From contig JAUHZK010000005.1 of NCBI GenBank assembly GCA_030425645.1, forward strand, positions 186,001-250,000: 64,000 nt of DNA, in the 5' to 3' direction. The notes under the pieces are model-generated. The model was not told the origin of the DNA and did not search any database. It saw nothing but the letters and a program-made list of their open reading frames with translations. This document shows positions 15,663 to 30,697 of the stretch, piece by piece. How positions within the stretch are numbered: position 1 is the stretch's first letter; every line of letters begins with the position of its first letter. The position numbers and the translations under genes are program-made. Origin of the DNA: Gammaproteobacteria bacterium (GTDB lineage: Bacteria; Pseudomonadota; Gammaproteobacteria; JAPPPA01).

Positions 15663-16805
15663 TTAAGCGCTACCAAACTCGGCAGCTTCGGCTGGTTCTG
15701 CGTACCAATAACCTTGCACCAGCTCGCAGCCAACGTCGGCAAGGAAGTCCCTTTGCGCAGCGGTTTGCACACCCTCAGCAACCACTCGAATATCTAAGGC
15801 TTTGGCAGCACCCACAACGGCCTTAACCACCACTCGGGCTTCCTCTAGGGTCTCCAAGCCGCTGATGATCTCACTATCTAACTTGACGAAATCAACCTTG
15901 AACTTGCAGACATGGATCAGCGACGAGCTACCATTACCGTAGTCGTCCAAAGCCACGCGCGCACCTTTTTCGCGGAGCTGACTTAGTGGCTGTTGAATGA
16001 GCTCAGCCTCGGGAATGCAGCTTTCGGTCAACTCAAATACTAGCTGTGAAAAAGGCATACCTTGCTCGCGTGCCAACTCCTCGCAGCGCTCTACAAAGTC
16101 CGACTCCAGCAACTGCTTGGCCGACACATTAATACTTAGCCAATGTCTTTGATGCAGCCCCGCGGCGACAAATTCAGCGCAGGCACGCTCGAAAACGTAA
16201 TAACCCAAGTCGTTAATTAGGCGAGTCTGTTCAGCAAGGCCTACCAAGGCCTGCGTTCCCATCTCCGGAAAGGCTTCAGAATGCCAGCGCAGAAGCGCCT
16301 CAAAGCCGACAGTTTGCTCGTTACCCAAGTTCAAAACGGGTTGAATCTGGACAGCCACCCGGCCAGCGTCCAAGTCTTTTTTTAGGGCTGCCTCAACCCG
16401 CAGCGGGTAATAGTCATCAACTGTCAACGCAGCGGGTGCACGGGCGGCCGCGGTCATTCGCACGCGTTCCAACCCACCTCGATAGCGCTTAACCACTACA
16501 TGTAATAACTTCTTTAGCAGCGGGTCTGCTTGTTCAACCCGATCTAAAAATTGGTGACTTTCGATACGCTGCAAAACGGTATCTTCATGGGCATAGGCAT
16601 CCGCCATTCTTGGAGAGTTGTCGATCACTGCCATCTCGCCAAGCAACTGGCCTTCGCCCAACAACCCAAGCGTGCGTTGCTGCTCACCTTCGCCTACGGA
16701 AACACGCACTGCGCCTGTCTTTATCAGATAGGCACAATCGCCCGTATCACCCGCGGCAAAAATGCGCTCGCCAGCTTCCACCTTATGCGGTGTTATTTCA
16801 TTCAT
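15663..16805 (-). CDS. Cyclic-nucleotide-binding-domain/EAL-domain protein
   Basis: A 380-residue cytoplasmic protein joining a cNMP-binding domain (residues 1-115, with LGEGQLLGEMAVIDNSPRMA as the phosphate-binding cassette) to an EAL phosphodiesterase domain (about 145-380). The EAL core is intact: FEALLRW, NVSAKQL, FELTES, LDDYGNGSSSL, VKLDSEI and VVAEGVQT, with the metal-binding Glu and Asp residues present. It should hydrolyse c-di-GMP to pGpG, possibly gated by a cyclic nucleotide. The ATG at 16805 is preferred because GGGAAGCAGGG lies upstream; the frame is open to 16856. It follows the ABC permease gene and likely shares its transcript, linking c-di-GMP signalling to the cell-surface genes upstream. 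Confidence 0.87.
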   Translation of the reverse strand: MNEITPHKVEAGERIFAAGDTGDCAYLIKTGAVRVSVGEGEQQRTLGLLGEGQLLGEMAVIDNSPRMADAYAHEDTVLQRIESHQFLDRVEQADPLLKKLLHVVVKRYRGGLERVRMTAAARAPAALTVDDYYPLRVEAALKKDLDAGRVAVQIQPVLNLGNEQTVGFEALLRWHSEAFPEMGTQALVGLAEQTRLINDLGYYVFERACAEFVAAGLHQRHWLSINVSAKQLLESDFVERCEELAREQGMPFSQLVFELTESCIPEAELIQQPLSQLREKGARVALDDYGNGSSSLIHVCKFKVDFVKLDSEIISGLETLEEARVVVKAVVGAAKALDIRVVAEGVQTAAQRDFLADVGCELVQGYWYAEPAEAAEFGSA

Positions 16806-16858
16806 CCCTGCTTCCCCTGTTGGACACCCCCGTGATCCAACACCGTGCATAAACAACG

Positions 16859-17623
16859 TTAATCCATTAAACGCCGTTCAAATAATTTTATTGATAGGTA
16901 CCCACCACCGACAGCATAAAACACTAACACCATTAGGTGAACAGCAACGTCGTCAGGCCAGTGACCAATCACCAGCGGCCGCGCGAGTTCAACAGCATGT
17001 GAAAGCGGCAATAACTGCGCCAAGGCCGAGACAAATGGCGGTAGGTTCTCTAAGGGGTAAAAAACCCCTGAGAACATAAACATTGGAATAATAACCAATG
17101 TATAAAAGTAGCTAAAATAATCATAACTTCGCGCAAATGGCACGATTGGCATACAAAATCCAGCAAAAGCCAAGCCTGCAACCAGCGCAACTAGCGGCAC
17201 CAGCAAGGCCGTTAGTGCGGTAATCGCGCCTAAACCGGTGGCCACCAGTAACAGCGCAACACAGGGAATACAACCTTTAGTGGCCGCCCATAGCTGCTCA
17301 CCCAAAACCACATCACGCACCCGTAACGGGGTTGCCAACATTGCCTGATGCGTTTTCTGCGGGTCCATACGGGTATAGCAGGAATACATGCCTTCAAAGG
17401 TCGCGGTATTCATCACCGATGACATCACCAGGCCGCTAGCCAAAAACGTTAGATAAGGCAGGCCGTCCATCGACGGTATGAACTGCCCCAAGCCGTAACC
17501 CAAGCCCAATAAATAAATTAGCGGCTCACCAAACTGAATAACCATGCTGACGCGCATCAACTTGGTCCACACTTTGGCGTTGCGACGCCAGACAGACAAG
17601 GCTGGTAGCAGCGCCCTAATCAC
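16859..17623 (-). CDS. ABC-2-type exporter permease, NodJ-like
   Basis: A 254-residue inner-membrane permease with about six helices and the ABC2_membrane/NodJ pattern: an amphipathic N-terminus, GEPLIYLLGLGYGLG, then MFSGVFYPLENLP before the last helices. It should form the membrane half of an exporter with the ATPase encoded just upstream. Start is a GTG at 17623 inside the last codons of the ATPase gene (eight-base overlap), with a GAGAG site upstream. NodIJ relatives export lipo-oligosaccharides in rhizobia, but in free-living bacteria the cargo is unknown. Confidence 0.88.
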   Translation of the reverse strand: MIRALLPALSVWRRNAKVWTKLMRVSMVIQFGEPLIYLLGLGYGLGQFIPSMDGLPYLTFLASGLVMSSVMNTATFEGMYSCYTRMDPQKTHQAMLATPLRVRDVVLGEQLWAATKGCIPCVALLLVATGLGAITALTALLVPLVALVAGLAFAGFCMPIVPFARSYDYFSYFYTLVIIPMFMFSGVFYPLENLPPFVSALAQLLPLSHAVELARPLVIGHWPDDVAVHLMVLVFYAVGGGYLSIKLFERRLMD

Positions 17624-18533
17624 GTAGCTCTCTCCGCGTCAGTCGCAAGAACACATCTTCAAGATTATGTCGGCGTTGTAGCATCGCTAGTACATCGAGC
17701 GCTGAGGCTTGCAGTTGAGCCCACTCAAGTACCGGCTCTGCATCATCGCTATAGGCGTACCAAGTGGTACCCGACTGCTCGAGCCGAACACCTGACAGCT
17801 GCGCCAATGCCTGCGCCTGTGCTGGCTCCAGTTCTGGAAACTCAAATACATGCGGTTCTACATGCTGTGCGATTAGGTCCCTTGGGCTGCCCTGAGTGAC
17901 AACCTTGCCGGCATCCATAATCGCCAACTCATCACATAAGCGCTCGGCCTCTTCCATATAATGCGTTGTCAGCAGCAAGGTTTTGCCCTGCGCTTGCAAA
18001 GCACGCAAGCGCGACCAAATTAAATGTCGAACTTGCGGGTCCAACCCTGTGGTGGGCTCATCTAGAATCACCAACTCAGGGTCATTCACCAAGGCTCTGG
18101 CAATGGTCAGGCGACGCTGCATGCCACCGGATAAAGCCCCAATTTTCTCTCGGCGCTTATGGCTTAATTCGGCAAACTCCAGTAACCAATCTATTCGATC
18201 GGCCAATTCTGTAGCTGCCAAGCCAAAGAAGCTCGCATAAACCCGAAGGTTTTCTTCCACGGTAAAGTCGGGATCTAAGTTATCCAGCTGCGGCACTACG
18301 CCAATACGCTGGCGCGCGACATGCGCCAGCTGAGGTACCGGCTGCCCCAGTATTTCTACGCTACCATCGCTGGGTTTAGTCATACCCAACAACATTCGAA
18401 TCGTGGTTGTTTTTCCAGCACCATTGGGACCTAACAAACCAAAACACTGCCCACGCCGCACCTGCAAATCTAGACCATCAACCACTTTGTCTTGGCCATA
18501 TTGCTTACGTAGCTGATGGGTACGAATAATCAT
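17616..18533 (-). CDS. ABC transporter ATP-binding protein, NodI-like
   Basis: A 305-residue ATPase. Walker A is GPNGAGKTTT at about residue 35, the signature is LSGGMQRR near residue 135 and Walker B/D-loop is LVILDEPTTGLDPQ near residue 155, followed by LLLTTHYMEEAERLC. The extra C-terminal 80 residues resemble those of NodI/drug-export subunits. It powers the ABC-2 permease encoded directly downstream with an overlap. The start codon overlaps the TAA of the copper-chaperone-like gene by one base, so the three genes are translationally coupled. Confidence 0.9.
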   Translation of the reverse strand: MIIRTHQLRKQYGQDKVVDGLDLQVRRGQCFGLLGPNGAGKTTTIRMLLGMTKPSDGSVEILGQPVPQLAHVARQRIGVVPQLDNLDPDFTVEENLRVYASFFGLAATELADRIDWLLEFAELSHKRREKIGALSGGMQRRLTIARALVNDPELVILDEPTTGLDPQVRHLIWSRLRALQAQGKTLLLTTHYMEEAERLCDELAIMDAGKVVTQGSPRDLIAQHVEPHVFEFPELEPAQAQALAQLSGVRLEQSGTTWYAYSDDAEPVLEWAQLQASALDVLAMLQRRHNLEDVFLRLTRRELRD

Positions 18534-18982
18534 TAATGCGGTGCGCGCTGCCTAACCAACAACTCAAGCGGCATTACATAGGTTTCGCCATTGGCTTTTT
18601 TTATCGTTAAATCAACTGGCACGCGTTCAGCCGGCTCAAGCGGGCGAGTCGGACCGATCAACATAAGGTGATCATTACCTGGGCTTAACTGACGCACTGA
18701 GCGCGGCGCAACTTCCAAGGAGTGCAACTCTCGCATCACCATCTGCCCGTCTGTCATGCGCATATGGTGAAACTCGATCTTCTCAAAACGTGGGCTGCTA
18801 GCCGCAGTTACCGTTAATGGTTCCACACCCGGATTATGAAACGAGAGGTAACCAGCCAAGACCTCTGCCGTTGGAGGAGCATTGCGGATCCAAGCAACTT
18901 GTACCGAAGCCGGTTCAGGCGGACGGCTACAACCTAGGAAAATAGCGGCTACGAATAGCCATAGAACAACAATTTTTTTCAT
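18533..18982 (-). CDS. PCuAC-type copper chaperone lipoprotein
   Basis: A 149-residue lipoprotein. The signal ends in a lipobox (IFLGC at residues 16-20). The body has the copper-binding spacing of PCu(A)C proteins: Met/His in FHHMRM with MVMREL, then HLMLIG about 21 residues later, matching the H-M-x10-M-x21-H-x-M rule. Such proteins carry Cu(I) in the periplasm to cytochrome oxidase or other cuproenzymes. It is the first gene of the ABC cluster and begins 38 bases after the last surface-protein gene, so it may be read through from that cluster. A copper role next to an ABC exporter is unusual; the cargo link is not shown. Confidence 0.85.
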   Translation of the reverse strand: MKKIVVLWLFVAAIFLGCSRPPEPASVQVAWIRNAPPTAEVLAGYLSFHNPGVEPLTVTAASSPRFEKIEFHHMRMTDGQMVMRELHSLEVAPRSVRQLSPGNDHLMLIGPTRPLEPAERVPVDLTIKKANGETYVMPLELLVRQRAPH

Positions 18983-19020: not shown

Positions 19021-20481
19021 TCACCGTACACGCATGCGTAAATCGACTTCAAAGCTGGGGTCACCCAATAAGCCGCTCGCCGATAAGCTGCCAGTGAAGT
19101 TAATGCGGACGTCGGTTACTAAGGCATCAAACCCATCCACATCCGCAGTTGGGCTATAAGTAAAGTTGCCACTACCGTCGTCATAACTGACATTGGCAGC
19201 AGCGCAACTTAAGCCGCTGCTAGGTGCACCATCACGGAAAGCCACTGAACCGCAGTTTTCCGTATTCGCCACATACACATCCATGTTGTCCGGCACAGGG
19301 TCGTCCAACTGTACGTTGGTCGCCACGCCGTCACCAAGATTTTCTACTCGAATCGTATACAGGACTTCGGCGCCGGGAATCGCTTTCGGGTTAACGGCAT
19401 CATTAATTGGGTCTCGATCAACTAGCACAGTCTTGCGCAGTAACGGTTCAGGCTGCGGCTCGATGTCCGCCACAAACGGCTGGCCAAAAACCAATACCCC
19501 AAAGTCTTCCGTAGTGTGGTTACGTTCGCTGTCTCGGTCCACATCTTCGTCAACCGCTAAGCCCACCTGAGTCGCAGACAACGCACACTGCCGCGCCCAG
19601 CCACCGTCGCCACCGCCATGCGTAATTTTGCTAGCAAAAACCTTTGGCACGGCGCTGTAAGTGTTAAAGAAACCGGCATTTGGCCGATGGTAACAACCGT
19701 TACCCCAACCCCGCACGTTGTCGCCAGTACGGAAAGATTCGTAGGCAACATCATCACCATTATTATCCTGAAAAACACCAGCCGAACCGTTGTCCATCAC
19801 AACATAGCCCATCGTTTCAGCTGACAAGTTGAACAACAAAGGCTGGTTATTCACTTCGCTTCGCTCAATGGCTGTTTGAAAACTCGTCGCAGCAACATTC
19901 CGCGTCGTCATCGTCACCCAAACTTCCGATTGCTGGTTATTGCCCGGCGCGCCAGACAGAAGTGATTCGTTGTTCAAGCTCTGCTGTAAGCCCACCAGAA
20001 CCGGGTTACTTGAGAAGCTACCATTCAGATTCTGCGTTGCCCAACTCTCAGCCCCACCGACACCATTACCATGCTGCAACGCAGAGGTAGTTATGGTGCC
20101 CGCTTCAATTACATCGCCATTCGGGAAGGTATGCACCCCAGGCTCAATAGCCAAATAGGAAACTACAGCTCCATTGGTTTCATAGCGGCCGTTCGAACCT
20201 GCTGGCTCAACAATGGCAATTTGGAAACCCACATTGGTCACATTTTGGATGTGGACAGCGGCGGGTTCGTCGTTCGCTGCTCCTTGTGTGCCCGGAGTTA
20301 GGGATAAGACAACGGGGGTGACCCCTACTGGAAAGGGCTGTTGGAATGTTACGGTGTTATAGAAATTCCAGTTAAGCGTTACCTCGTCAACTTCAAGCTG
20401 CCATGCAAAGCTAAGCTGAGATAGGCCAGTTAGTACAACCGCCGCCAGCGCCCTTTTTACCCCCAACAACACCGGTCTCAA
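19021..20481 (-). CDS. Secreted protein with H-type-lectin-like and DUF11-like domains (copy 2)
   Basis: A 486-residue protein with a signal peptide (ALAAVVLTGLSQLSFAW). The first 300 residues hold two repeats resembling H-type lectin sandwiches (TFQQPFPVGVTPVV and later FSSNPVLVGLQQSLNNE). The last 150 are DUF11-like: NPKAIPGAEVLYTIRVENLG, then NVQLDDPVPDNM. It starts with TTG, overlapping the TGA of the upstream gene (TTGA), so it should be coupled to it. It is a clear paralogue of the 20478-21959 product in order, length and domain layout. Surface adhesion or matrix binding is likely but not shown. Confidence 0.7.
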   Translation of the reverse strand: MRPVLLGVKRALAAVVLTGLSQLSFAWQLEVDEVTLNWNFYNTVTFQQPFPVGVTPVVLSLTPGTQGAANDEPAAVHIQNVTNVGFQIAIVEPAGSNGRYETNGAVVSYLAIEPGVHTFPNGDVIEAGTITTSALQHGNGVGGAESWATQNLNGSFSSNPVLVGLQQSLNNESLLSGAPGNNQQSEVWVTMTTRNVAATSFQTAIERSEVNNQPLLFNLSAETMGYVVMDNGSAGVFQDNNGDDVAYESFRTGDNVRGWGNGCYHRPNAGFFNTYSAVPKVFASKITHGGGDGGWARQCALSATQVGLAVDEDVDRDSERNHTTEDFGVLVFGQPFVADIEPQPEPLLRKTVLVDRDPINDAVNPKAIPGAEVLYTIRVENLGDGVATNVQLDDPVPDNMDVYVANTENCGSVAFRDGAPSSGLSCAAANVSYDDGSGNFTYSPTADVDGFDALVTDVRINFTGSLSASGLLGDPSFEVDLRMRVR

Positions 20482-21959
20482 TCCACTCGAATCCTGAAGT
20501 AAAGATCAAACTGCGGAGTGCCCGTATTCGAATGACTAAACTCGTTGAGAAAGTTAATTCGGTAATGCGTCACCGCATTATCGAATCCATCTGCATCGGG
20601 CGTCGGCTGATAGGCCCAATTATTGCCACCATCGTTGGAGAACTCTAATGAGTCCAAAGTCGGTGCTAAGGGGTTGTAGTTATATACCAACCCACTCGAT
20701 GGGCTGCCGTCTTGAAAGCGCACGGGCCCGCTATTAGCGCCATTAATATCACCAACAAACAACGTCGTATTCGTCGGCACCGCATCACTTAAAACAACAT
20801 CCGTGGCCGGCCCGTCGCCGTGGTTACCGGCGTTAAGTCGGTACTGCACTACTGCTTCAGGAATCGCCTTTGGGTTACTCACGCCATTAATTGGATCCGA
20901 CACCACTTGGTCAACAAGTTTCATAAAGACAATGTCAGGCTCGCCAAACTCAGCGTTAAAAGCCCGGCTAAACGCAATCACGCCGGTCTCGTTAGACTGA
21001 CCATTATTTTTAGAACGCTCATTATCTAAGTCACGGTCTTCGTCACCACGAAGCTGTACCGAATCCCTATCCTGAGTATTCTGGCGATAACGCACCCAAC
21101 CACCGTCGTTGTCACGGTGGTTATTCAGAGATGCGCCGATAATCGGCTGCGCACCGGCACCCAAATCGGTGTAGTTCACCGTAATAATATTATTAGTACC
21201 GTCCCAGCCGCCTAGGCGACCACTTCGAGCCGCTGTCACATTAACGTTATTACCGCTGTTATCTTCAAAAGTATCAAAGGCGCCAATTTCCATCGCCAGC
21301 CATCCAAAATTTTCCGCCAAGATGACACTGCCGTTATTGGCACCGGACCTTTCTAAGGCCGCATCAAAGCCACTGGCGTTGACGTTATCTATTGCCGTTG
21401 TTAGCCAAGGCTGCGAAAAGCTAGCCGGCGGCAAACCGGTTTCATTGTTCATAGTTTGAATTTGAGCAACAACGACTGGCGTAGTCGAGAAGGCATCTGG
21501 AAAGGTAACATCTTCCCAGCCCTCTGCTGGCAACGGCGGTTGCGGAGGCAAGGTAATCAGTGGCGAATTGAAGGCTCGTTGCCGTTCTGCTGTATTAACA
21601 GAGCCAGCTTGAATACGCGTGCCGTTAGGCAACTCATAGCTACCTGGCTCAATGACAATGTAATGCGCGGTCATTGCCACGTGGGGGCCGTCATTCCCTG
21701 CTGGCTCAGCTTGCACAGCCTCAAACCCAAGCGGCGTCACAGCACGCACACGGATATCACTTGGATCTCCACCCTGCTCTGACGGCAACATAAACACCAA
21801 CGGCGTTACATCGTAGGTTTGCTGAAAAACAACCGGAGTAAAGTTAGCCACGTTAAACGTATTTTGAATAGTGACCGTACCTGCCTCCATTTTCCAAGCA
21901 AGTGCGGCATTGGGAAGCAGCAGCGCCACCAACCATAGGCTGCGGCCTAAGCAGCGCAT
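20478..21959 (-). CDS. Secreted protein with H-type-lectin-like and DUF11-like domains (copy 1)
   Basis: A 493-residue protein with a signal peptide (SLWLVALLLPNAALAW). Two lectin-like repeats (FTPVVFQQTYDVTPLVFM and FSTTPVVVAQIQTMNNE) are followed by a DUF11-like region: NPKAIPEAVVQYRLNAGNHG and VVLSDAVPTNTT. The paralogous neighbour has the same plan, so the pair arose by tandem duplication. The ATG overlaps the TAA of the 1936-residue protein's gene by one base. The predicted location is the cell surface or periplasm. H-type lectin similarity is judged by eye and would need profile searches. Confidence 0.7.
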   Translation of the reverse strand: MRCLGRSLWLVALLLPNAALAWKMEAGTVTIQNTFNVANFTPVVFQQTYDVTPLVFMLPSEQGGDPSDIRVRAVTPLGFEAVQAEPAGNDGPHVAMTAHYIVIEPGSYELPNGTRIQAGSVNTAERQRAFNSPLITLPPQPPLPAEGWEDVTFPDAFSTTPVVVAQIQTMNNETGLPPASFSQPWLTTAIDNVNASGFDAALERSGANNGSVILAENFGWLAMEIGAFDTFEDNSGNNVNVTAARSGRLGGWDGTNNIITVNYTDLGAGAQPIIGASLNNHRDNDGGWVRYRQNTQDRDSVQLRGDEDRDLDNERSKNNGQSNETGVIAFSRAFNAEFGEPDIVFMKLVDQVVSDPINGVSNPKAIPEAVVQYRLNAGNHGDGPATDVVLSDAVPTNTTLFVGDINGANSGPVRFQDGSPSSGLVYNYNPLAPTLDSLEFSNDGGNNWAYQPTPDADGFDNAVTHYRINFLNEFSHSNTGTPQFDLYFRIRVD

Positions 21960-24900
21960 TATTCGTGCTCCTTCGCCGGCAACGCGCGATGGCGCGCCAA
22001 GTTAGCGCCATTGCCCTGCTGGTCAAACTTCAAGCGGAACCGAATATAAGCACCGTTATTGGTCCACGCCGCTTCATCAAAGTCTTCGTCTTGGAAACCA
22101 GCCCAGTTATAACCCACACTAATCCATAGATTCTGCAGTGGCGACACGCCAACGTTTAGCCCGGCCGAATACTGTCGGTTTTTAGCTACCCAGTCATCAT
22201 GGCTAGAAATCTGCAGTCCCCAATCCCACCACTCATTGAAGCTATGACGATACTCAACACCTAACTGGCTATAAGCACCGCTATAAACGTCTTCATCAAT
22301 GGTGTCGCGAACATATTTGGCACCAATAAAGAATGACCATTGATCGCGTTCGGTAAACAGCCAATTAGCGTTAAATTGGTTCACTAAACGAGTGCTGCGG
22401 AAATCACCGCCAGTATCGCTACGTTCATCTTCGGCGATTACATCAAAACGATTTAAGAAGAACCATTTCGCTTCCACCGGACGCCAGACTAAGCCAAAGC
22501 GAGCTTCAACTGTTGATTTGCGGCTAGTGGCCGTCTCGTCTTGCAACCAACGCAGGGCAAAGTCGATACCCTTACCTTCCAAGTTCTGGCGACGCCATGA
22601 GGTAATAATGCCGTCGCGCTCAGAGCTGTCGCTACGGTGCGCTTCATAGCGAAGATCCCAGTGCCATAAATCACCCTTACGACCTATGGTAGCGTGGCCT
22701 GACTTAAAGTCATCAGCACTACCGTTCGCCAATGGCGTGTCACCATTCAATGCCGTTACGCCGCTATCACGCAAGGTGGTGGATTGATCAAAACCAAGGC
22801 TTGCCCACCAGCCGTCACGCATCGCCAACTGTTGCGTCAAGCCATTACCGGTATAGAGGCGCTGGCCATCACCTTGGTCGTCATGTGCGATATAGCTTTG
22901 CAAACTCGCGCCTTGCCACAGTTCAGACTGCAACCCTAGACGAGTACTACGCGTGTCACGTTCGGCGCCTTCGGTATATTCTTGTTTAAGGAATAGCAAG
23001 GTAGAAGGCGCGACCCGCACATCCAAGCCCAAAACCACTCGCTCAGGAAAATCCGCGGCCGCATTTTTATCTGACAAAGCTGCCTCATAACGGGCGGAGA
23101 GACCAATAAAGTTATTAAAGAAGCTCTGGCGTAGATCCAATATCGCTTGCTGGCTTTCCGATGTAACACCGGCGGCGGTTTCATCTTCAGCGTGACGGAA
23201 ACCAAGCTCAACATGACCCGTAGCATTCTGGGCACGTACAGACAGCTGCGCGAAGCGACGCTTGTTGCCAACGGTCAGGTTTTCTTCATCAGCCACATCT
23301 GCGGTCAGGCTAACGTGCTGGGTCAACTTAACCTCACCTTGCACACCAATCTTACGAGTCGCATTTTCGCTGGCAGAAACGCTGCCCAAACCATAACCGG
23401 CCTCGACTTCACGGAAGTAAATACTGCCATTCACGCGGCCGCCGCGATGCGAAAGCTCAATCACTTTACCGGCAGCCTTGGTCGTTAGGCCTGCTAGATC
23501 GCGGGTAGTTTCACCGTATTCGACCCGCAGTTCGCCGTGCTTACCAAATCGTAGACGGCCATCTGCTGCCACCACGCTGCGCTCAGCTAGATTGTCATCT
23601 TCACTAAGATAGCTAACACCCAGCATTAGGCGCTGACTAGCATTGTGTAGGGCAACCCGTCCGCCCGCTGTGGTGGTTTTCTGGCCGCCGCCATCTACTT
23701 CATAGTTAGCAACAATATATATAGGGTTAAATTCAGCATCGCGCACCGGCACCGGCTCACGGAAGAAGATAGTGCCGTCGTTATAGTTAATCTGATAGTC
23801 GTAATAGCGACGCAAGTTACGCGTGCTTAACACTTCATGGCTACGCAGGCGATGGCGAGTTTCAATGGTCAGCTGTTCGGTATTTAACGCTGGAACATTA
23901 CTTAGGCGGTAATAGCCAGAGGTGCCGTCACCGGGGATTTCATCACGCGAGAAACCGGTCTCGGTTTCTGCCGCAAACAAGTTGTAGCTGACATAACGCC
24001 CGCGCAACTCACTCTGCAAACCAGTTAAGGAGCGCTGATAGCTGGCTAGTTCAACCACATCTAGGCCGGTCTCAATATCGCCATAGGTAGCGTGGAAGGC
24101 CCCGCGCTCTAGACGCACATAAATTTGCTCTTGGCTGGCGCCTTCTTGGCCACTAAAGGACTGATCACCATATAAGGTATACCAGCTATCTGGATCAATA
24201 TCGCCACCATGGCCAAACTGCGTCGCTTCGCCTTTATTGTCGTCATAGCGCATGGTTAACAAGGCGCTACCTAAAACACGCCCTTTAGCGAAGAAAGCAA
24301 TCCGGCCATCGGTGTAAACCTCATTGCCATCGGCCGCTTGCACGCTGCCTGCTGGAGCTTGTTGCGACAGGCTGCCTTCAGCCAGACCCACCAAAATCCA
24401 ATCTCTAGGCTGCTCAGTTACCCAAGTACTTACTTGGCTGCGACGGCCTTCGGCAAACCGGAACTCAAGGTCAACCCGGCCAGCACTGGCTGCCGGCGAC
24501 AAGCGAATAAAGGCGGTGCCGTCATCATCGGCAACCACATAGCGATAACGAGCTGGGCGGGCGTTACGGTCGCCCTGAATCGTATTGTCGAGAGCAGCTT
24601 CAAGACTTTCCTGCCCGCTACTAATATTGAACTCACCATTCATGCCACGGGCAATTGGCGCGCCACTAATGTCGGTTAAGCGCACCGCTATCACTGCTGG
24701 CTGCTGACCATCTATTAATAAACGTGAACGGTTTTCTAGCAGCTCAGCCAGCACCGGCGTGGTACTACGACGTACTACCCGACTAATACTGTCAGTAATA
24801 TTGCCTTCGTTATCGAGCAAGTGAACGACCAACTCACTGTCGCCAGCCGGTAGATCCACACCCTTCCAGGTACTTAACGCAACTTTGCGGTCACGGCTAC

Positions 24901-27769
24901 GGGTACGGCCTTCGTAGTTCAGCGCACTCACGCCACGGCCATTAATTTCTACTTGAATACGTTGGTTATTGGCGTGTTTCACCACAATTGGTGTACTAAT
25001 GCCAGCCGGGTTATAACCCTCGGTTGGTAGGACGATCTCAGTCTCAGCGTTCTGTGTCGCCAACCATTGCGCATCAAAGTCCGCTAGTTGCGGCTGTTCA
25101 ACTAACGTCGGCTGCCAAAGTACGGGAGCAACCCAACCCTGACCTTCAATAGCTACTGTCTGATAACCACTATCTGCCTGCATCAATTGTAGAGACTGGC
25201 CATTACTAACAGCAGCCGCATACACCTGCACTTCAACACGGCGGTTTTTAGCTTTACCTTCAGGCGTTAAGTTGCTGGCAATCTGCTCATACGGGCCAAC
25301 GCCTTCAACCTCAATCCGGTCTGGATTAATGGCCAAAGTTTGCGCTAAGAAATCAGCAACTGAGCGCGCCCGCGCGTAACCGAGCTCGACATTGTTCTTA
25401 TAGAGCTTTTGATTACGTTTAGAAATCATGTCGCTGTCGGTATGGCCGCGTACTTTCACAGTCAACACAGGGCGGTTAACTAAACGCGCCGCCAAAGCAC
25501 GCAGCGCCTCGCGGTCAACGTCCTTAAGTGTTGTACTGAGGACATCGAACTGCGGCCGGTAAACATAAGTTTCAGGCTCACCTAATGTTTCACTACAGGC
25601 GACCGTGTTAGTGGCCACCGGCGTGCGGTTACGCTTACGTGCTTCGGTACCAAAGGTCGCCATCGCGCGAGCCTCTAGCGTACCAGCCTGGCAAGCGCCA
25701 ACACCAAGCGTGGCGGCAAGATTTAGTTCGCTGGTGAAATCAAGGCCATTTTTAGGCAGCTTCACATTCACCACGCCATCACGGTGACGAACCCGTACCG
25801 GCTGGCCATCTAGTGTTGCGCTACCAACGGTCGGTGTAACACCCTCGGGCAGCATTAACGTTAGCGTGCTGTCTTTAACCGCTATGTCACCAACATTAAA
25901 CTGCAGCTGATAGTTCAAGCCGTCTTGGTCCAATTGGCTTTGCAAACGAACGCCGGCAGTCGAGGTACGCGGCTGTTTTTCTTTGACGTAAAAATCTGCG
26001 CGCCAAAGTGAACCTTGGCTAGCATCTACAAAACGAGAAAACGGTGTACCGGCATAGCGCGTGTCGTCATAGCAAAGCTGTGCTTCGTATTGTGGCGGCA
26101 GTGTCGCCTGATCTACCTGTACCACATGGGTGCGTGCACTCAGGCCTTCAAAGTGATACTTACCCTCGTCGTCGGTCACCGCAAAGCGGCCATTCTCTAG
26201 ATAAACTCTTACTCCCACGACTGGGCGCGCCGGACGGTCTTCGTCAGAACAATCAGTTTCCATTACGCGGCCCACCAAGGTCATGGTGCCTTGCTGGAAT
26301 GCGCTTTCAATTTCAACTTCAGCTTCGGCTGCGTTTGAGACAAAACCGCCGTCGGCCGTCGCCAGCGCGCGGTTCACAGCGCTTCCGACTGTGGCGCCGG
26401 CACTAATTCTGACGACATAAGACAAGCTACGAGAGGTACCGGTGGTCAAATCACCCACCTCAAAGGTCAGGTCGCGGCCATTCGGGCCAATCACCGGATC
26501 TAGGGCTTTAACGCCATCAAGACGCGTACTGCCAGCTTGATAACGCAAACCAAGCGGCAAACGGTCACCAATATGCGTGTTGATCGCATCATTGGTGGTG
26601 CTGAGATTAGCTAGATTTAAGCTATAACGTAGGAAGTCACCTTGCTGCACCACTTGGCGCTGTGCGGTTTTCTCAAGCACTAAGTCTTGCAACAACGGAT
26701 CAATAGGCAAATCTACCCGCACTGGCGGACCTTGTGGCACCAAGAAGTTTTCGCCGTAAGAACCCACAATAATAGTGTATGGGTCTCCCGTAGACGGATC
26801 ATTCGGCAAATTGGCAGCGGCCACGGTAGAAGGGAAGACATAGCTCACCGGTGGCGTAATCTGCAGCCGATATTCGCCTTCATTAACCAATGGGAAGCGG
26901 TATTCACCAGGCGCAAAACCGAGCGCGGCATCACCGGTTGTGACCGTGCTGGGATAAAGCGTCGTGCCGTCGTCATCAAACACAGTGGCCGGTTGGCCGG
27001 TGCTGACATCTATCAGGGTCACGGTAACGCCGTCCTGCGGCTCGCCGGTGCTGCTGTCAAAGACAATGCCGTAAGGATCGATAAGCGCCGAGGCCTCTTT
27101 CACTTCGGTACTGTCAAAGCGATCGGTGTATTCGAGCTCGATCTGGCTATTGCGTTCTACATTTAATACACAGTTGTTTTGAACAACAGCGTTGTCATCC
27201 GTTTGGATATAACCAGCGAACACACCCGTGTCCTCGCCAGTTTCATAAATTCGTAAAGTCTCCTCATCACCATTGTCGGTAGTGAGTACGACTAAAACAC
27301 TTTCGATGGCTTCGTCATCTAAATTCTGATCTCCATCAGCAACCTGCATAAACACAGGGTCGCCCTGCAAATACGCAGCAGCGGAATCTAGATTCTCATT
27401 GCCATTTAAAGTTTGCCCGTCGGCGGTTTGTGGATCGGGTAACGCCGCTGCATTACATTGGGAGTTTTGAATATCCCCCGGTTGGGCATTATTGCCGGCA
27501 GTATTCGCAATTCGTAAGAACTCAATCTCTGCTGACGTTTGGAAAATAGTGGTAGTGGTTTCTATTTCATTAGAATCAGTATCGCGTGCTTCTCCCGCTT
27601 GTAGCCAACTGGCACTAGCCGTGTTGGCAATCACGGTCCCCGGCGTAGTTACCGGCGCAGACACAGCCACACTCACGCCGGCAATCACCAGCAATAAGCA
27701 CAACGCAGCCTTAACGCCCATCAACATAGACGTCTTTAGCTTAGGTAGCTGTGGCACTGTTCTAATCAC
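21959..27769 (-). CDS. 1936-residue OmpA/DUF11/beta-barrel surface protein
   Basis: A very large exported protein. The signal is near residues 15-40 (AALCLLLVIAGVSVAVSA). Next come immunoglobulin-like segments to about 370, a DUF11-type module near 375-490 (QGDFLRYSLNLANLS), and a carboxypeptidase-regulatory/SdrD-B-like module near 500-560 (VRVYLENGRFAVTDDEGKYH). An OmpA peptidoglycan-binding domain covers about 740-850 (VKVRGHTDSDMISKRN, GVGPYEQIASN, KNRRVEVQV), followed by more Ig-like repeats. Finally there is a strand-rich region of about 730 residues that reads as an outer-membrane barrel. Start is a GTG at 27769. It probably anchors the cluster's secreted partners at the outer membrane. 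I know no characterised protein with this exact order. Confidence 0.72.
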   Translation of the reverse strand: MIRTVPQLPKLKTSMLMGVKAALCLLLVIAGVSVAVSAPVTTPGTVIANTASASWLQAGEARDTDSNEIETTTTIFQTSAEIEFLRIANTAGNNAQPGDIQNSQCNAAALPDPQTADGQTLNGNENLDSAAAYLQGDPVFMQVADGDQNLDDEAIESVLVVLTTDNGDEETLRIYETGEDTGVFAGYIQTDDNAVVQNNCVLNVERNSQIELEYTDRFDSTEVKEASALIDPYGIVFDSSTGEPQDGVTVTLIDVSTGQPATVFDDDGTTLYPSTVTTGDAALGFAPGEYRFPLVNEGEYRLQITPPVSYVFPSTVAAANLPNDPSTGDPYTIIVGSYGENFLVPQGPPVRVDLPIDPLLQDLVLEKTAQRQVVQQGDFLRYSLNLANLSTTNDAINTHIGDRLPLGLRYQAGSTRLDGVKALDPVIGPNGRDLTFEVGDLTTGTSRSLSYVVRISAGATVGSAVNRALATADGGFVSNAAEAEVEIESAFQQGTMTLVGRVMETDCSDEDRPARPVVGVRVYLENGRFAVTDDEGKYHFEGLSARTHVVQVDQATLPPQYEAQLCYDDTRYAGTPFSRFVDASQGSLWRADFYVKEKQPRTSTAGVRLQSQLDQDGLNYQLQFNVGDIAVKDSTLTLMLPEGVTPTVGSATLDGQPVRVRHRDGVVNVKLPKNGLDFTSELNLAATLGVGACQAGTLEARAMATFGTEARKRNRTPVATNTVACSETLGEPETYVYRPQFDVLSTTLKDVDREALRALAARLVNRPVLTVKVRGHTDSDMISKRNQKLYKNNVELGYARARSVADFLAQTLAINPDRIEVEGVGPYEQIASNLTPEGKAKNRRVEVQVYAAAVSNGQSLQLMQADSGYQTVAIEGQGWVAPVLWQPTLVEQPQLADFDAQWLATQNAETEIVLPTEGYNPAGISTPIVVKHANNQRIQVEINGRGVSALNYEGRTRSRDRKVALSTWKGVDLPAGDSELVVHLLDNEGNITDSISRVVRRSTTPVLAELLENRSRLLIDGQQPAVIAVRLTDISGAPIARGMNGEFNISSGQESLEAALDNTIQGDRNARPARYRYVVADDDGTAFIRLSPAASAGRVDLEFRFAEGRRSQVSTWVTEQPRDWILVGLAEGSLSQQAPAGSVQAADGNEVYTDGRIAFFAKGRVLGSALLTMRYDDNKGEATQFGHGGDIDPDSWYTLYGDQSFSGQEGASQEQIYVRLERGAFHATYGDIETGLDVVELASYQRSLTGLQSELRGRYVSYNLFAAETETGFSRDEIPGDGTSGYYRLSNVPALNTEQLTIETRHRLRSHEVLSTRNLRRYYDYQINYNDGTIFFREPVPVRDAEFNPIYIVANYEVDGGGQKTTTAGGRVALHNASQRLMLGVSYLSEDDNLAERSVVAADGRLRFGKHGELRVEYGETTRDLAGLTTKAAGKVIELSHRGGRVNGSIYFREVEAGYGLGSVSASENATRKIGVQGEVKLTQHVSLTADVADEENLTVGNKRRFAQLSVRAQNATGHVELGFRHAEDETAAGVTSESQQAILDLRQSFFNNFIGLSARYEAALSDKNAAADFPERVVLGLDVRVAPSTLLFLKQEYTEGAERDTRSTRLGLQSELWQGASLQSYIAHDDQGDGQRLYTGNGLTQQLAMRDGWWASLGFDQSTTLRDSGVTALNGDTPLANGSADDFKSGHATIGRKGDLWHWDLRYEAHRSDSSERDGIITSWRRQNLEGKGIDFALRWLQDETATSRKSTVEARFGLVWRPVEAKWFFLNRFDVIAEDERSDTGGDFRSTRLVNQFNANWLFTERDQWSFFIGAKYVRDTIDEDVYSGAYSQLGVEYRHSFNEWWDWGLQISSHDDWVAKNRQYSAGLNVGVSPLQNLWISVGYNWAGFQDEDFDEAAWTNNGAYIRFRLKFDQQGNGANLARHRALPAKEHE

Positions 27770-27785
27770 AACATGCTCTTAGACA

Positions 27786-27822
27786 CCAAGACCCAAGGCC
27801 TATTACTAGACCTTGGGCTTGG
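27786..27822 (-). other. Intercistronic hairpin upstream of the 1936-residue gene
   Basis: Arms CCAAGACCCAAGG (27786-27798) and CCTTGGGCTTGG (27811-27822) pair over 12 bases with one bulged A. The hairpin fills most of the 71-base gap between the two surface-protein genes. It lacks a T-run on the minus strand, so an RNA-stability or attenuation element is more likely than a simple terminator. Confidence 0.5.
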
Positions 27823-27840
27823 CTGTCAGAGGTTTGGCAG

Positions 27841-29154
27841 TTACTTAATCGTTACGAAGAACGTAATTACGATTACATCGTCGCCATCTGCCGCATCTTT
27901 CTCGGCAATGGTAATGCCGGAAAGCGACAGGTCTGTTGCGCTTGAACCGTCCGTAGGGATTGGATCAACAGCCGCTTCATCACCATCTTCAACCACTACC
28001 GAAGTTGGCGGACCAACCACTAACAAGGTATCGGTATCAACGGTGTCCGCAATCGAGGCACCGGTTACTTCGGTATTACCGTTGTTTTGAATGGTCAGGG
28101 TGTAGCGAACATAGGCGCCAGGAATGGCTTTCGGATTAGTACCGACACCACATAGTGTATCGACATCAGCGGTTGAGTCGGTCGGCTCGGTCGCTACAGA
28201 ACAACTGAAAGCATCCCATACGGTTTCAGACTCTTTCGTTACCACTAGCTCAGGCTGCTCAATGATATAGCCACTGGTAGCGGCAAACTGGCCATTACTA
28301 GCTACATCGGTGCCAGCACCATCGCCATCAAAACGGCCTGAACCGTTAGCGACAAAGTTATGGGTAACCGCTGCACGAGCGGCAATTGTGCTACCTGCGT
28401 TGCCTTCAACATCGTCTTCAGCAAACACATCCTGCACTGCATCCGGATCATCAGCCACAGAAGCTGCGGTGCCACCAGGTGCCGCATTGCCGCTGCTATC
28501 TTGCGCGATCAGCGCGCCTGGTGTGGCCGCGCCACCTGAACCATCATCATCTTCCGCGACTTGCGCCACTAGAGTTACTAGCGCAATGTCACCTGAACCA
28601 ACACCACCATTAGCAACGGTTATTCCGTCGTCTGGAATGTCTGAAGTGATGGTAATGGTCACCATCGCGTCAGGTGCTAGGTTATCGACATAGTCTTGTG
28701 TAGAACCGCCAACAGCAATAGACATAGTCGCAGTCGTTACATCAAAACTATCAGTGGCCGCATAAGGATCAGTCATTGAACCGCTTGCACGGTTTAGAGC
28801 CGCCAAGGCGAAATCCAATGTGTCGTTAGAAGTGTTTTTCAAGGTAAAGGTGGTGACCTGCGCGGTATCGCCTTCCAACACTGATACCAGCGTGGTGTCA
28901 GTGGTAACAACTTCAAAGTCGAGCTTACGATCAACAACGAAGTCAGTCGACTCACCGTTAGATGCACCAACGGTGCTGTTGCCAGTTGGGGAACTTTCCA
29001 ATACCAAATCTGGACCAGTCGGTTCTGCTTTAAAGGTCAACGTGGCAAGGTTTTCCACATCGGTTCCCGCGGCGGTACCCGCAGCGAGGGCGCTACCAGC
29101 GAAGCCGCCGGTCAAGACTAGCCCAAGGGCTATTTTCTTAAAGTTAAGTTTCAT
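27841..29154 (-). CDS. Secreted DUF11-like repeat protein
   Basis: A 437-residue exported, acidic protein of low complexity (rich in Asp, Thr, Ala, Val). A signal peptide (IALGLVLTGGFAGSALA) is followed by beta-sandwich segments such as TFTLKNTSNDTLDFALA and a C-terminal DUF11-like module (NPKAIPGAYVRYTLTIQNNG and GASIADTVDTDTLLVVG). The shared NPKAIPGA signature ties it to the 19021 and 20478 products. An AGAGGAA site precedes the ATG. It is probably a major secreted or fibrous surface component; its acidic, Asp/Asn-rich face might bind calcium. No named family beyond DUF11 similarity is claimed. Confidence 0.72.
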   Translation of the reverse strand: MKLNFKKIALGLVLTGGFAGSALAAGTAAGTDVENLATLTFKAEPTGPDLVLESSPTGNSTVGASNGESTDFVVDRKLDFEVVTTDTTLVSVLEGDTAQVTTFTLKNTSNDTLDFALAALNRASGSMTDPYAATDSFDVTTATMSIAVGGSTQDYVDNLAPDAMVTITITSDIPDDGITVANGGVGSGDIALVTLVAQVAEDDDGSGGAATPGALIAQDSSGNAAPGGTAASVADDPDAVQDVFAEDDVEGNAGSTIAARAAVTHNFVANGSGRFDGDGAGTDVASNGQFAATSGYIIEQPELVVTKESETVWDAFSCSVATEPTDSTADVDTLCGVGTNPKAIPGAYVRYTLTIQNNGNTEVTGASIADTVDTDTLLVVGPPTSVVVEDGDEAAVDPIPTDGSSATDLSLSGITIAEKDAADGDDVIVITFFVTIK

Positions 29155-29201
29155 TTCTCTATTCCTCTGACATGAGAATTACTTAAGGTTTTGCTATCAA
29201 G

Positions 29202-29690
29202 TTATTGCACGACCGCGCGATAGCTCACGGTGCCGGTTTTACCCGGCTGCAATGCGTAGTTCACTGTCCAACGCACATGGCTAACGTCTTTAAACGTCGC
29301 CGCACGCTGTTCGCCATTGGCAAGGGTTACGTCTAAATCAATTAGATTGCCGTAACGCTTGCCGCCGTCGACAGACACTGAAATTTGGGTTCCGGCTCCA
29401 AACGCAGAGCCTTGGCGATACCAGGTATGCTCTGGAATCGGGTTGTTAATGACCAAGTCACGGGCTTCACTGTCGCCCTCGTTGGAAAAGCTGAGGATGT
29501 AAACCACTTCCTCACCCGGTAATACTTTTTCGGCTGGCACCAGTTTTGTGGCCGATTTACCGTCTTCAGTCACGGTTACTTCTTGGAAAACCTCAGATTT
29601 AAAAACCACTTTGTCTTCCGCTAGGGCCGCCAACGGCAGCATGGCTACAGAAAACAACATTGCTTTGATCGAAGCGTTCATCTTTTTCAT
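29202..29690 (-). CDS. Small secreted DUF11-like protein
   Basis: A 162-residue exported protein. The signal peptide (AMLFSVAMLPLAALA) is followed by one DUF11-like sandwich: VLPGEEVVYILSFSNEGDS, then NNPIPEHTWYRQGSAFG and a closing RWTVNYALQPGKTGTVSYR. The ATG at 29690 is preferred, with GAGG upstream; a GTG at 29705 overlaps the end of the upstream gene. One module without barrel or anchor suggests a soluble partner or building block of the cluster. Confidence 0.7.
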   Translation of the reverse strand: MKKMNASIKAMLFSVAMLPLAALAEDKVVFKSEVFQEVTVTEDGKSATKLVPAEKVLPGEEVVYILSFSNEGDSEARDLVINNPIPEHTWYRQGSAFGAGTQISVSVDGGKRYGNLIDLDVTLANGEQRAATFKDVSHVRWTVNYALQPGKTGTVSYRAVVQ

Positions 29691-29701
29691 CTCTAATTTC
29701 C

Positions 29702-30697
29702 TCACTGAATCGTGGCTTGGAACGTCACTACGCGATCCGCGCTCGGCGCGGTCACACTGCCCAAGTCCACAAGTATTTGGTTATTACCACCGTCAAACTC
29801 GGCAGCATCGGTATCGGCACTGTCGGTTTGCGACAGGCCGTCAAGTGTCAAGCTACCAAGGCGATAGTCGGTATTGCTTGGAATTAAGTCGCTAATAACC
29901 ACATCATCCAACACGCCCTCGCCGAGCACGCGGATGGTGATTTCGTAGGTAATGTGGGCGCCGGGTACCGGCTGGTCACCACCCTGTGGGTCGCTAATTT
30001 CACTAACACGCTTGTCTAGCTCTAGCGCCGCGTTGTTGTTCACTCGCAACACGGTAGTGATCGTTTGGGTGCCGCCGTTTTGACCTAGAACCAGGTCAGT
30101 ATCGTTATCACCGGCATCAGCAACCACCGCACCGGGCGTACCAGCTTCTGCGCCAGCATCGGCGGCAGTCGCGGTTAGGTTTAACTCAGCCACACCGGCG
30201 ATAGCCTACCCCGCTGGCACCAGCAAACGTACAAACAGATCTAGGGACTCACCGGCCGCCAACTCCGGCAAGTTGGCTGGGTCGTAGAGTGTATCTTCTG
30301 TCTCATCGAAAACACCGTCGCCGTCGCTGTCTAGCCACAGTTCCAGACTGGCAACATCAAAGTCATCACTCGCGCTCTGAGTAAGCTCCAAACTGTAAGC
30401 CTGAAGACCATTGCCAAGGTGTTCCAAACGGAATTGCAAGAGCTGCTGACTGGGAGTAGCAACACCAACGGGCGCGGTGTTTAGATCAAGCAGATTAAGC
30501 CCCGTTAGCTCTTGAACTTCAAAAGCTTCGGTATTCGAATCAAGCGGCTGGCTACCCGGGTATTCAAACGTGGCAATATTGGAGACGGTCGAGCCCGGGG
30601 CGGTACTGGCATAAGCAGCCGGGCACAATGCCAAGCACAGCAGTAACGCTGCGCTAACAGATGCACCTGTCGACTTAATTTTCCCCAGTGTTCCCAT
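29702..30697 (-). pseudogene. Secreted DUF11-like protein gene split by an in-frame amber codon
   Basis: Two 163-residue open halves lie in the same frame and are separated only by TAG at 30206-30208 and four sense codons (Ala-Ile-Ala-Gly). The upstream half has a signal peptide (ALLLCLALCPAAYAS), a TVSNIATFEY segment and a sandwich ending LFVRLLVPAG. The downstream half continues naturally with AELNLTATAADAG and a DUF11 module (VPGAHITYEITIRVLGEG, ISDLIPSNTDYRLGS). Read as one, it is a 331-residue secreted protein at the head of the cluster. The stop may be a true nonsense mutation, a sequencing error or a read-through site. A GTG at 30193 could restart the second half, but it would lack a signal peptide. 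Confidence 0.78.

Follow-up and report, generated by a model that had tools for sequence, protein, structure and literature searches.

A gammaproteobacterial cluster of DUF11 proteins that may assemble into a head-to-tail surface fibre through split domains

A cluster of six genes, here called A to F, was analysed in a 64,000-nucleotide stretch of a gammaproteobacterial genome (GCA_030425645.1, contig JAUHZK010000005.1, positions 186,001 to 250,000; hereafter the window, in whose numbering all coordinates are given). All six are minus-strand genes, which together span 30697 to 19021, and their products carry N-termini resembling signal peptides. The main feature of the cluster is an incomplete DUF11 domain at the C-terminus of several proteins, combined with an N-terminal strand on their partners, and it is new relative to a previous account made from the letters of the window alone (the sequence-only reading). 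Proteins with the incomplete domain are termed acceptors, and those with the N-terminal strand donors.

Genes and domains of the cluster

The six genes are as follows.

29702..30697, minus strand: gene A, donor and acceptor (link) protein, about 331 codons
29202..29705, minus strand: gene B, single DUF11-like protein of 167 residues, no donor motif
27841..29154, minus strand: gene C, donor and acceptor (link) protein of 437 residues, with NPKAIPGA
21959..27769, minus strand: gene D, giant protein of 1936 residues, proposed fibre base
20478..21959, minus strand: gene E, candidate lectin tip with H-type lectin units and a C-terminal acceptor domain (NPKAIPEA), no donor motif
19021..20481, minus strand: gene F, candidate lectin tip and paralogue of E (NPKAIPGA), no donor motif

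The reading frames and N-termini bear out the earlier description of six adjacent minus-strand loci with exported products, with one amendment. Gene A consists of two open reading frames (ORFs; 30206-30697 and 29702-30193) that form one frame cut by an in-frame TAG at 30208-30206, and since both halves match intact homologues of 337-361 residues from other genomes consecutively, it is regarded as a single gene that carries either a nonsense codon or an error in the sequence. The likely true start of B is the ATG near 29690. The end-to-end overlaps described before were found at A/B, D/E and E/F (4, 1 and 4 bases, respectively), and it is gene spacing and these overlaps that suggest an operon; a terminator scan of the cluster gave results at chance level, and promoter-like sites amounted to one, under the shuffle mean.

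The DUF11-like modules of the sequence-only reading were recovered with two family models. The Pfam model (PF01345) scored over its cut-off in F, D and B and more weakly in A, C and E, and the NCBIfam model B_ant_repeat (DUF11) passed in B, C, D, E and F and in the second half of A. The NPKAIPGA-type signature that had been ascribed to five proteins is literal (as NPKAIP[GE]A) in C, E and F alone, A having QPVPGA and B KVLPGE. The lectin-like repeats noted in two proteins correspond to H_lectin (PF09458), which was found over its curated cut-off in E and F (3e-8 and 2e-5, respectively). These two proteins align at 36% over 509 columns and are paralogues; each has about three lectin-like units, of which units 1 and 2 are related within each protein and unit 3 weakly.

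In Pfam, D matched DUF11, CarboxypepD_reg, SdrD_B and OmpA, and the following parts were distinguished along its chain.

26300..26686, minus strand: internal complete DUF11/CLIPPER domain (Lys367, Asp402, Asn466)
25241..25549, minus strand: OmpA-like peptidoglycan-binding domain, residues 741-843 (PF00691, 6.2e-12)
24425..25102, minus strand: immunoglobulin (Ig)-like region, residues ~890-1115, with AlphaFold confidence near 80 only for the first part (~930-1000)
21962..24409, minus strand: C-terminal region, residues 1121-1936, with long beta-strands in the predicted secondary structure and a low predicted local distance difference test score (pLDDT); putative large outer-membrane barrel

Of the two features previously claimed for this protein, the OmpA domain was confirmed (6e-12), while the outer-membrane barrel stays putative, conservation and predicted strands being what argues for it, with a pLDDT of 37 for the AlphaFold model. 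Many strands of 10-14 residues are predicted by AlphaFold at residues ~1370-1760, where pLDDT is mostly below 60, and a PDB search with the barrel profile of D gave no match. Pfam scans of the cluster proteins returned no usher (PF00577) or PapD-like chaperone family. A defence system was considered and rejected; PADLOC gave MotB/OmpA (ZorB) matches only, and these are accounted for by the OmpA domain.

Incomplete C-terminal domains and N-terminal donor motifs

A reference DUF11 profile was built from 35 repeats of an 11,777-residue protein encoded on another contig (C2) of the same genome. Lys (position 6), Asp (position 40) and Asn (position 102) are conserved in 100% of these repeats, in agreement with the Lys-Asp-Asn isopeptide site reported for CLIPPER domains (PMC12617251). 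The profile of the partners' C-termini covers positions 1-93 of the 140 reference positions and terminates at the stop codon (E 4e-11). The Asn position is reached by no acceptor at its C-terminal end, and 18 of 24 giants have Asn at that position in an internal DUF11 domain. Among the aligned proteins, 48 of 51 acceptors have kept the Asp, compared with 4 of 21 B proteins; in 14 of these 21, Asn takes the place of the catalytic residue (INNPIP in the window copy). The acceptor Lys was seen ahead of the PGA motif in almost every acceptor in which the motif was recognised. A complete Lys, Asp and Asn domain within one chain is present in the internal domain of D and in none of the C-terminal domains. 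By these alignments, the C-terminal DUF11 (CLIPPER) domain of the partners is one strand short, with Lys and Asp kept and the Asn strand missing, as exemplified by gene C. A regular expression for the C-terminal tail was also enriched (45 of 96 versus 21 of 281) and is superseded by the profile evidence.

27844..28248, minus strand: C-terminal acceptor domain of C, a truncated DUF11 with Lys (VVTK) and Asp (IADT), terminating in ITFFVTIK and the stop codon

A motif resembling the last DUF11 strand, GTxIxNxAxxxY, occurs near the start of the mature proteins D, A and C and is not found in E, F or B. It lies a median of 8 residues after AxA in ORFs with the motif, and it is followed by a NEW3-like domain.

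30560..30595, minus strand: donor-strand motif of A, GSTVSNIATFEY, directly after the signal peptide, assigned by sequence reading and motif statistics
29032..29067, minus strand: N-terminal donor-strand motif of C, GTDVENLATLTF
27605..27640, minus strand: N-terminal donor-strand motif of D, GTVIANTASASW

In the class sample, with [VIL]xNxA counted within an N-terminal window, the motif was found in 20 of 25 giants, 29 of 53 acceptors, 2 of 23 B proteins and 14 of 273 other ORFs (Fisher 7e-27), with shuffle expectations of 2.2, 5.8, 1.8 and 11.0, respectively. It is mostly missing in B and in lectin or other large adhesin-like partners. When a last-strand profile from the reference repeats was applied, nine cluster N-termini ranked first, above every other ORF or shuffle. 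Of artificial fusions of acceptor and donor, 49% were read as DUF11 through the Asn; the share was 7.6% when N-termini of other exported proteins took the place of the donor and 22% when the donor was shuffled. A second sample comprised the loci of 20 further genomes, mostly from other classes of the phylum, with motif, profiles and protein classes fixed beforehand; one of the 20 regions gave no recognisable cluster gene with the ORF caller used. The motif was found there in 13 of 17 giants and 18 of 34 acceptors, that is 31 of 51 together, versus 0 of 12 B proteins and 10 of 123 others (Fisher 1e-12). As far as motif and profile assign them, D is donor-only, A and C are both donor and acceptor, and E, F and B are acceptor-only.

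Conservation, proposed assembly and alternatives

Among 369 genomes of the class, close relatives (>300 bits) of the Ig-plus-barrel region of D were found in 28 and matches to a profile of B in 29, and the two occur together in 25 genomes (P ~2e-31, or ~4e-30 leaving out the genomes used for profile building). In all 21 cases in which both genes fell on one contig, B was encoded on the strand of D, 3.7-6.8 kb upstream of the barrel region. The C-terminal profile of the partners gave strong matches in 20 genomes, 19 of which also contain D, and the typical cluster has one giant and several partners. The arrangement is more than chance and recurs in many genomes. The sequence-only reading had proposed an outer-membrane anchor with dedicated secreted ligands and had named a lack of co-occurrence in other genomes as a refuting condition. 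The outcome favours it, and a dedicated, conserved set of secreted DUF11 proteins grouped about a single giant, probably in the outer membrane, is upheld. Relatives were also found in a Steroidobacter metagenome-assembled genome (MAG), an epsilonproteobacterial MAG, plasmid p4 of Acinetobacter haemolyticus and other proteobacterial classes. Pfam matched no OmpA domain in the Acinetobacter giant and found an OmpA protein in the adjacent next gene, which ties the functions of the giant and OmpA together. No OmpA domain was aligned in the giants of the epsilonproteobacterial MAG and of one further genome (G022) either, and OmpA is therefore not essential to the design.

The distribution of donors and acceptors suggests a polar chain, in which the donor-only D would be the base, A and C the links and the acceptor-only E and F the tip. 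The cluster probably encodes a head-to-tail surface fibre joined through split DUF11 (CLIPPER) domains. In such a fibre, D would be anchored through its barrel and OmpA domain and would complete the C-terminal domain of a link protein, A or C, with its N-terminal strand. The links would in turn give their own N-terminal strands to the next subunit, until the chain ends in a lectin protein, E or F, that would bind glycans. The barrel of D may serve as anchor alone or also as an usher-like exporter of subunits. OmpA domains are normally periplasmic, so the N-terminus of D could begin in the periplasm. With Lys and Asp located on acceptors and Asn on donors, neighbouring subunits may be joined by an intermolecular isopeptide bond between Lys and Asn under catalysis by Asp, which is less certain than the strand exchange. 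B may chaperone or cap the donor strands without bonding to them covalently, a role consistent with the Asn that replaces its catalytic Asp. The full proposal, a Gram-negative assembly pathway in which fibre subunits ligate covalently and spontaneously, is advanced only tentatively. In it, a naturally split isopeptide domain would link DUF11 proteins into a polymer that runs from the giant at the outer membrane to the lectin at the tip, B would be a paralogue without catalytic activity that acts as chaperone or cap, and no sortase, usher or PapD-type chaperone would take part.

Several observations weigh against the fibre. The donor segment compares weakly with the DUF11 profile (E ~0.02-0.03) and is too short for the comparison to decide, and against the internal DUF11 of the giants it aligned to the following SNxA strand, leaving its register uncertain. 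Just 33 of 53 acceptors score higher with donors than with control N-termini, a recognisable donor motif is missing in some giants and link proteins, and the acceptor Lys was judged by eye. An iterated search over 377 neighbouring ORFs, started from five seeds that were each the C-terminal 190 residues of a different partner, counts in favour of the fibre, with 78 ORFs at every printed set size, but the sets overlap partly through DUF11-like sequence common to all. AlphaFold2 confidence was low, with a mean pLDDT of 45 for gene C and 37 for the Ig-plus-barrel region of D, from alignments of five and three rows, respectively, drawn from the window and the Steroidobacter and epsilonproteobacterial MAGs. 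The position of OmpA between donor and putative barrel complicates surface exposure of the donor.

It is also conceivable, although unlikely, that the proteins are independent secreted adhesins without subunit exchange, in which DUF11 is a structural module, the C-terminal versions are compact seven-strand variants and GTxIxNxA is the first strand of an N-terminal Ig-like domain of the same protein. The NEW3-like domain after the donor motif agrees with this, as do the known DUF11 domains without isopeptide residues and the more compact DUF7507 (PMC12617251). Against it stand the retention of Lys and Asp of the isopeptide site in precisely those domains that lack the Asn strand, and the consistent partition of donor and acceptor halves among proteins in two separate samples.

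A still smaller likelihood is given to the C-terminal DUF11 as a sorting or secretion signal read by D, which would then be a translocon (SprA- or usher-like) from which partners are released or displayed singly, with no polymer. The homologous C-terminus common to all partners and flush with the stop codon would suit such a signal, as would the large, co-conserved and strand-rich D and the usual ratio of one giant to several partners per cluster, but the donor motif of D, A and C and the missing Asn strand are left unexplained, and D has no usher, PapC or autotransporter match in Pfam. A secretion role is partly compatible with the split-domain fibre. Tiling of the surface by a two-dimensional surface-layer (S-layer) or sheath array (the sequence-only reading had named a sheath or an S-layer-like fibre system among its options) is highly improbable, for although a fragment of D weakly matches an anammox S-layer model, the match reaches 26 bits against a model cut-off of 1400, the patchy distribution (28 of 369 genomes), the single giant per cluster and the lectin partners better fit a fibre or adhesin, and the anatomy of the cluster indicates a head-to-tail fibre with an adhesive tip.

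Known systems and related loci

Chaperone-usher pili (type 1, with FimA-FimH, FimC and FimD) resemble the proposed fibre in the donor-strand complementation of incomplete Ig-like domains and in the N-terminal donor extension on the links. Their tip protein FimH is an acceptor-only lectin without donor, to which E and F can be likened. The cluster differs from these pili in that its proteins gave no Pfam match to a PapD-type chaperone or an usher, its subunit domain is DUF11/CLIPPER with isopeptide residues, and its base is a giant DUF11/OmpA/barrel-like protein with its own donor strand. In Gram-negative bacteria, donor-strand fibres are associated with the chaperone-usher and type V pathways, and the covalent pili of Gram-positive bacteria depend on sortases; the cluster appears to pair strand exchange with autocatalytic isopeptide chemistry and to manage without any of these.

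The principle of donor-strand complementation is also found in archaeal threads (Saci_0406), which combine head-to-tail complementation with a proposed intermolecular isopeptide bond (PMC9715654). In the threads, the bond joins the N-terminal amine of Asp24 to Asn57 two subunits away (PMC9715654), whereas in the cluster it would join Lys and Asn within a reconstituted domain; envelope and genes are different. A PDB search with the acceptor profile found no homologous subunit of archaeal threads or TasA-type fibres. The sole PDB sequences below E=1 belong to AbpX (9rhp, 9sj2), an archaeal donor-strand bundling pilus protein (E 0.5-0.6), which was rejected as a relative of the acceptors, the match being confined to the region of the generic PGA motif.

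The CLIPPER (DUF11) domains of fibrillar adhesins (PDB 9IFR) have the domain family and the Lys-Asp-Asn site in common with the cluster, but known cases are complete in one chain with an intramolecular bond (PMC12617251), whereas in the cluster the domain would be divided over two proteins. In tag/catcher pairs such as SpyTag/SpyCatcher, an isopeptide domain is likewise divided into strand and catcher; these pairs are engineered from CnaB domains (PMC5487036), whereas the cluster would hold a natural CnaA-like split used for assembly. If the proposal is true, new tag/catcher pairs of natural origin could be drawn from such clusters. No description of the cluster was found in the PMC literature searched, which excludes subscription papers and preprints, and the earlier impression that no system of such composition has been characterised agrees with the searched papers mentioning DUF11, among which there was none. 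With occurrence in ~8% of the sampled class genomes and in other proteobacterial classes, this could be a common, overlooked adhesion system, and the analysis offers a functional hypothesis for proteins annotated merely as DUF11 or OmpA family.

The grappling-hook-like GhlA of Litorilinea is also a DUF11-domain fibre, formed by a single chain of 6,596 residues with 49 DUF11 domains (PMC13319060), in contrast to the exchanged subunits of the cluster. It is nearer to the separate 11,777-residue DUF11 protein of the same genome, which is possibly related to it in kind. In this protein (contig C2, ~428700-464000), over 40 DUF11 repeats precede OmpA-like and barrel-like regions akin to D, and the ORF adjoins ribosomal protein and translation-factor genes. 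In five other genomes, a second type of locus was observed, in which an OmpA/barrel protein of ~1700 residues adjoins a DUF11 protein of ~2800-4200 residues. The fusion of such a pair in the 11,777-residue protein provides an independent link between DUF11 fibres and the barrel family of D.

On the 3' side of F (15663-18982), the window encodes a PCu(A)C copper chaperone, an ATP-binding cassette (ABC) ATPase with an ABC-2 permease, and a protein with cyclic nucleotide monophosphate-binding and EAL domains, a possible cyclic di-GMP phosphodiesterase. In a sister genome of the same genus, the order is F then E, opposite to that of the window, and the PCu(A)C and ABC genes still lie just downstream.

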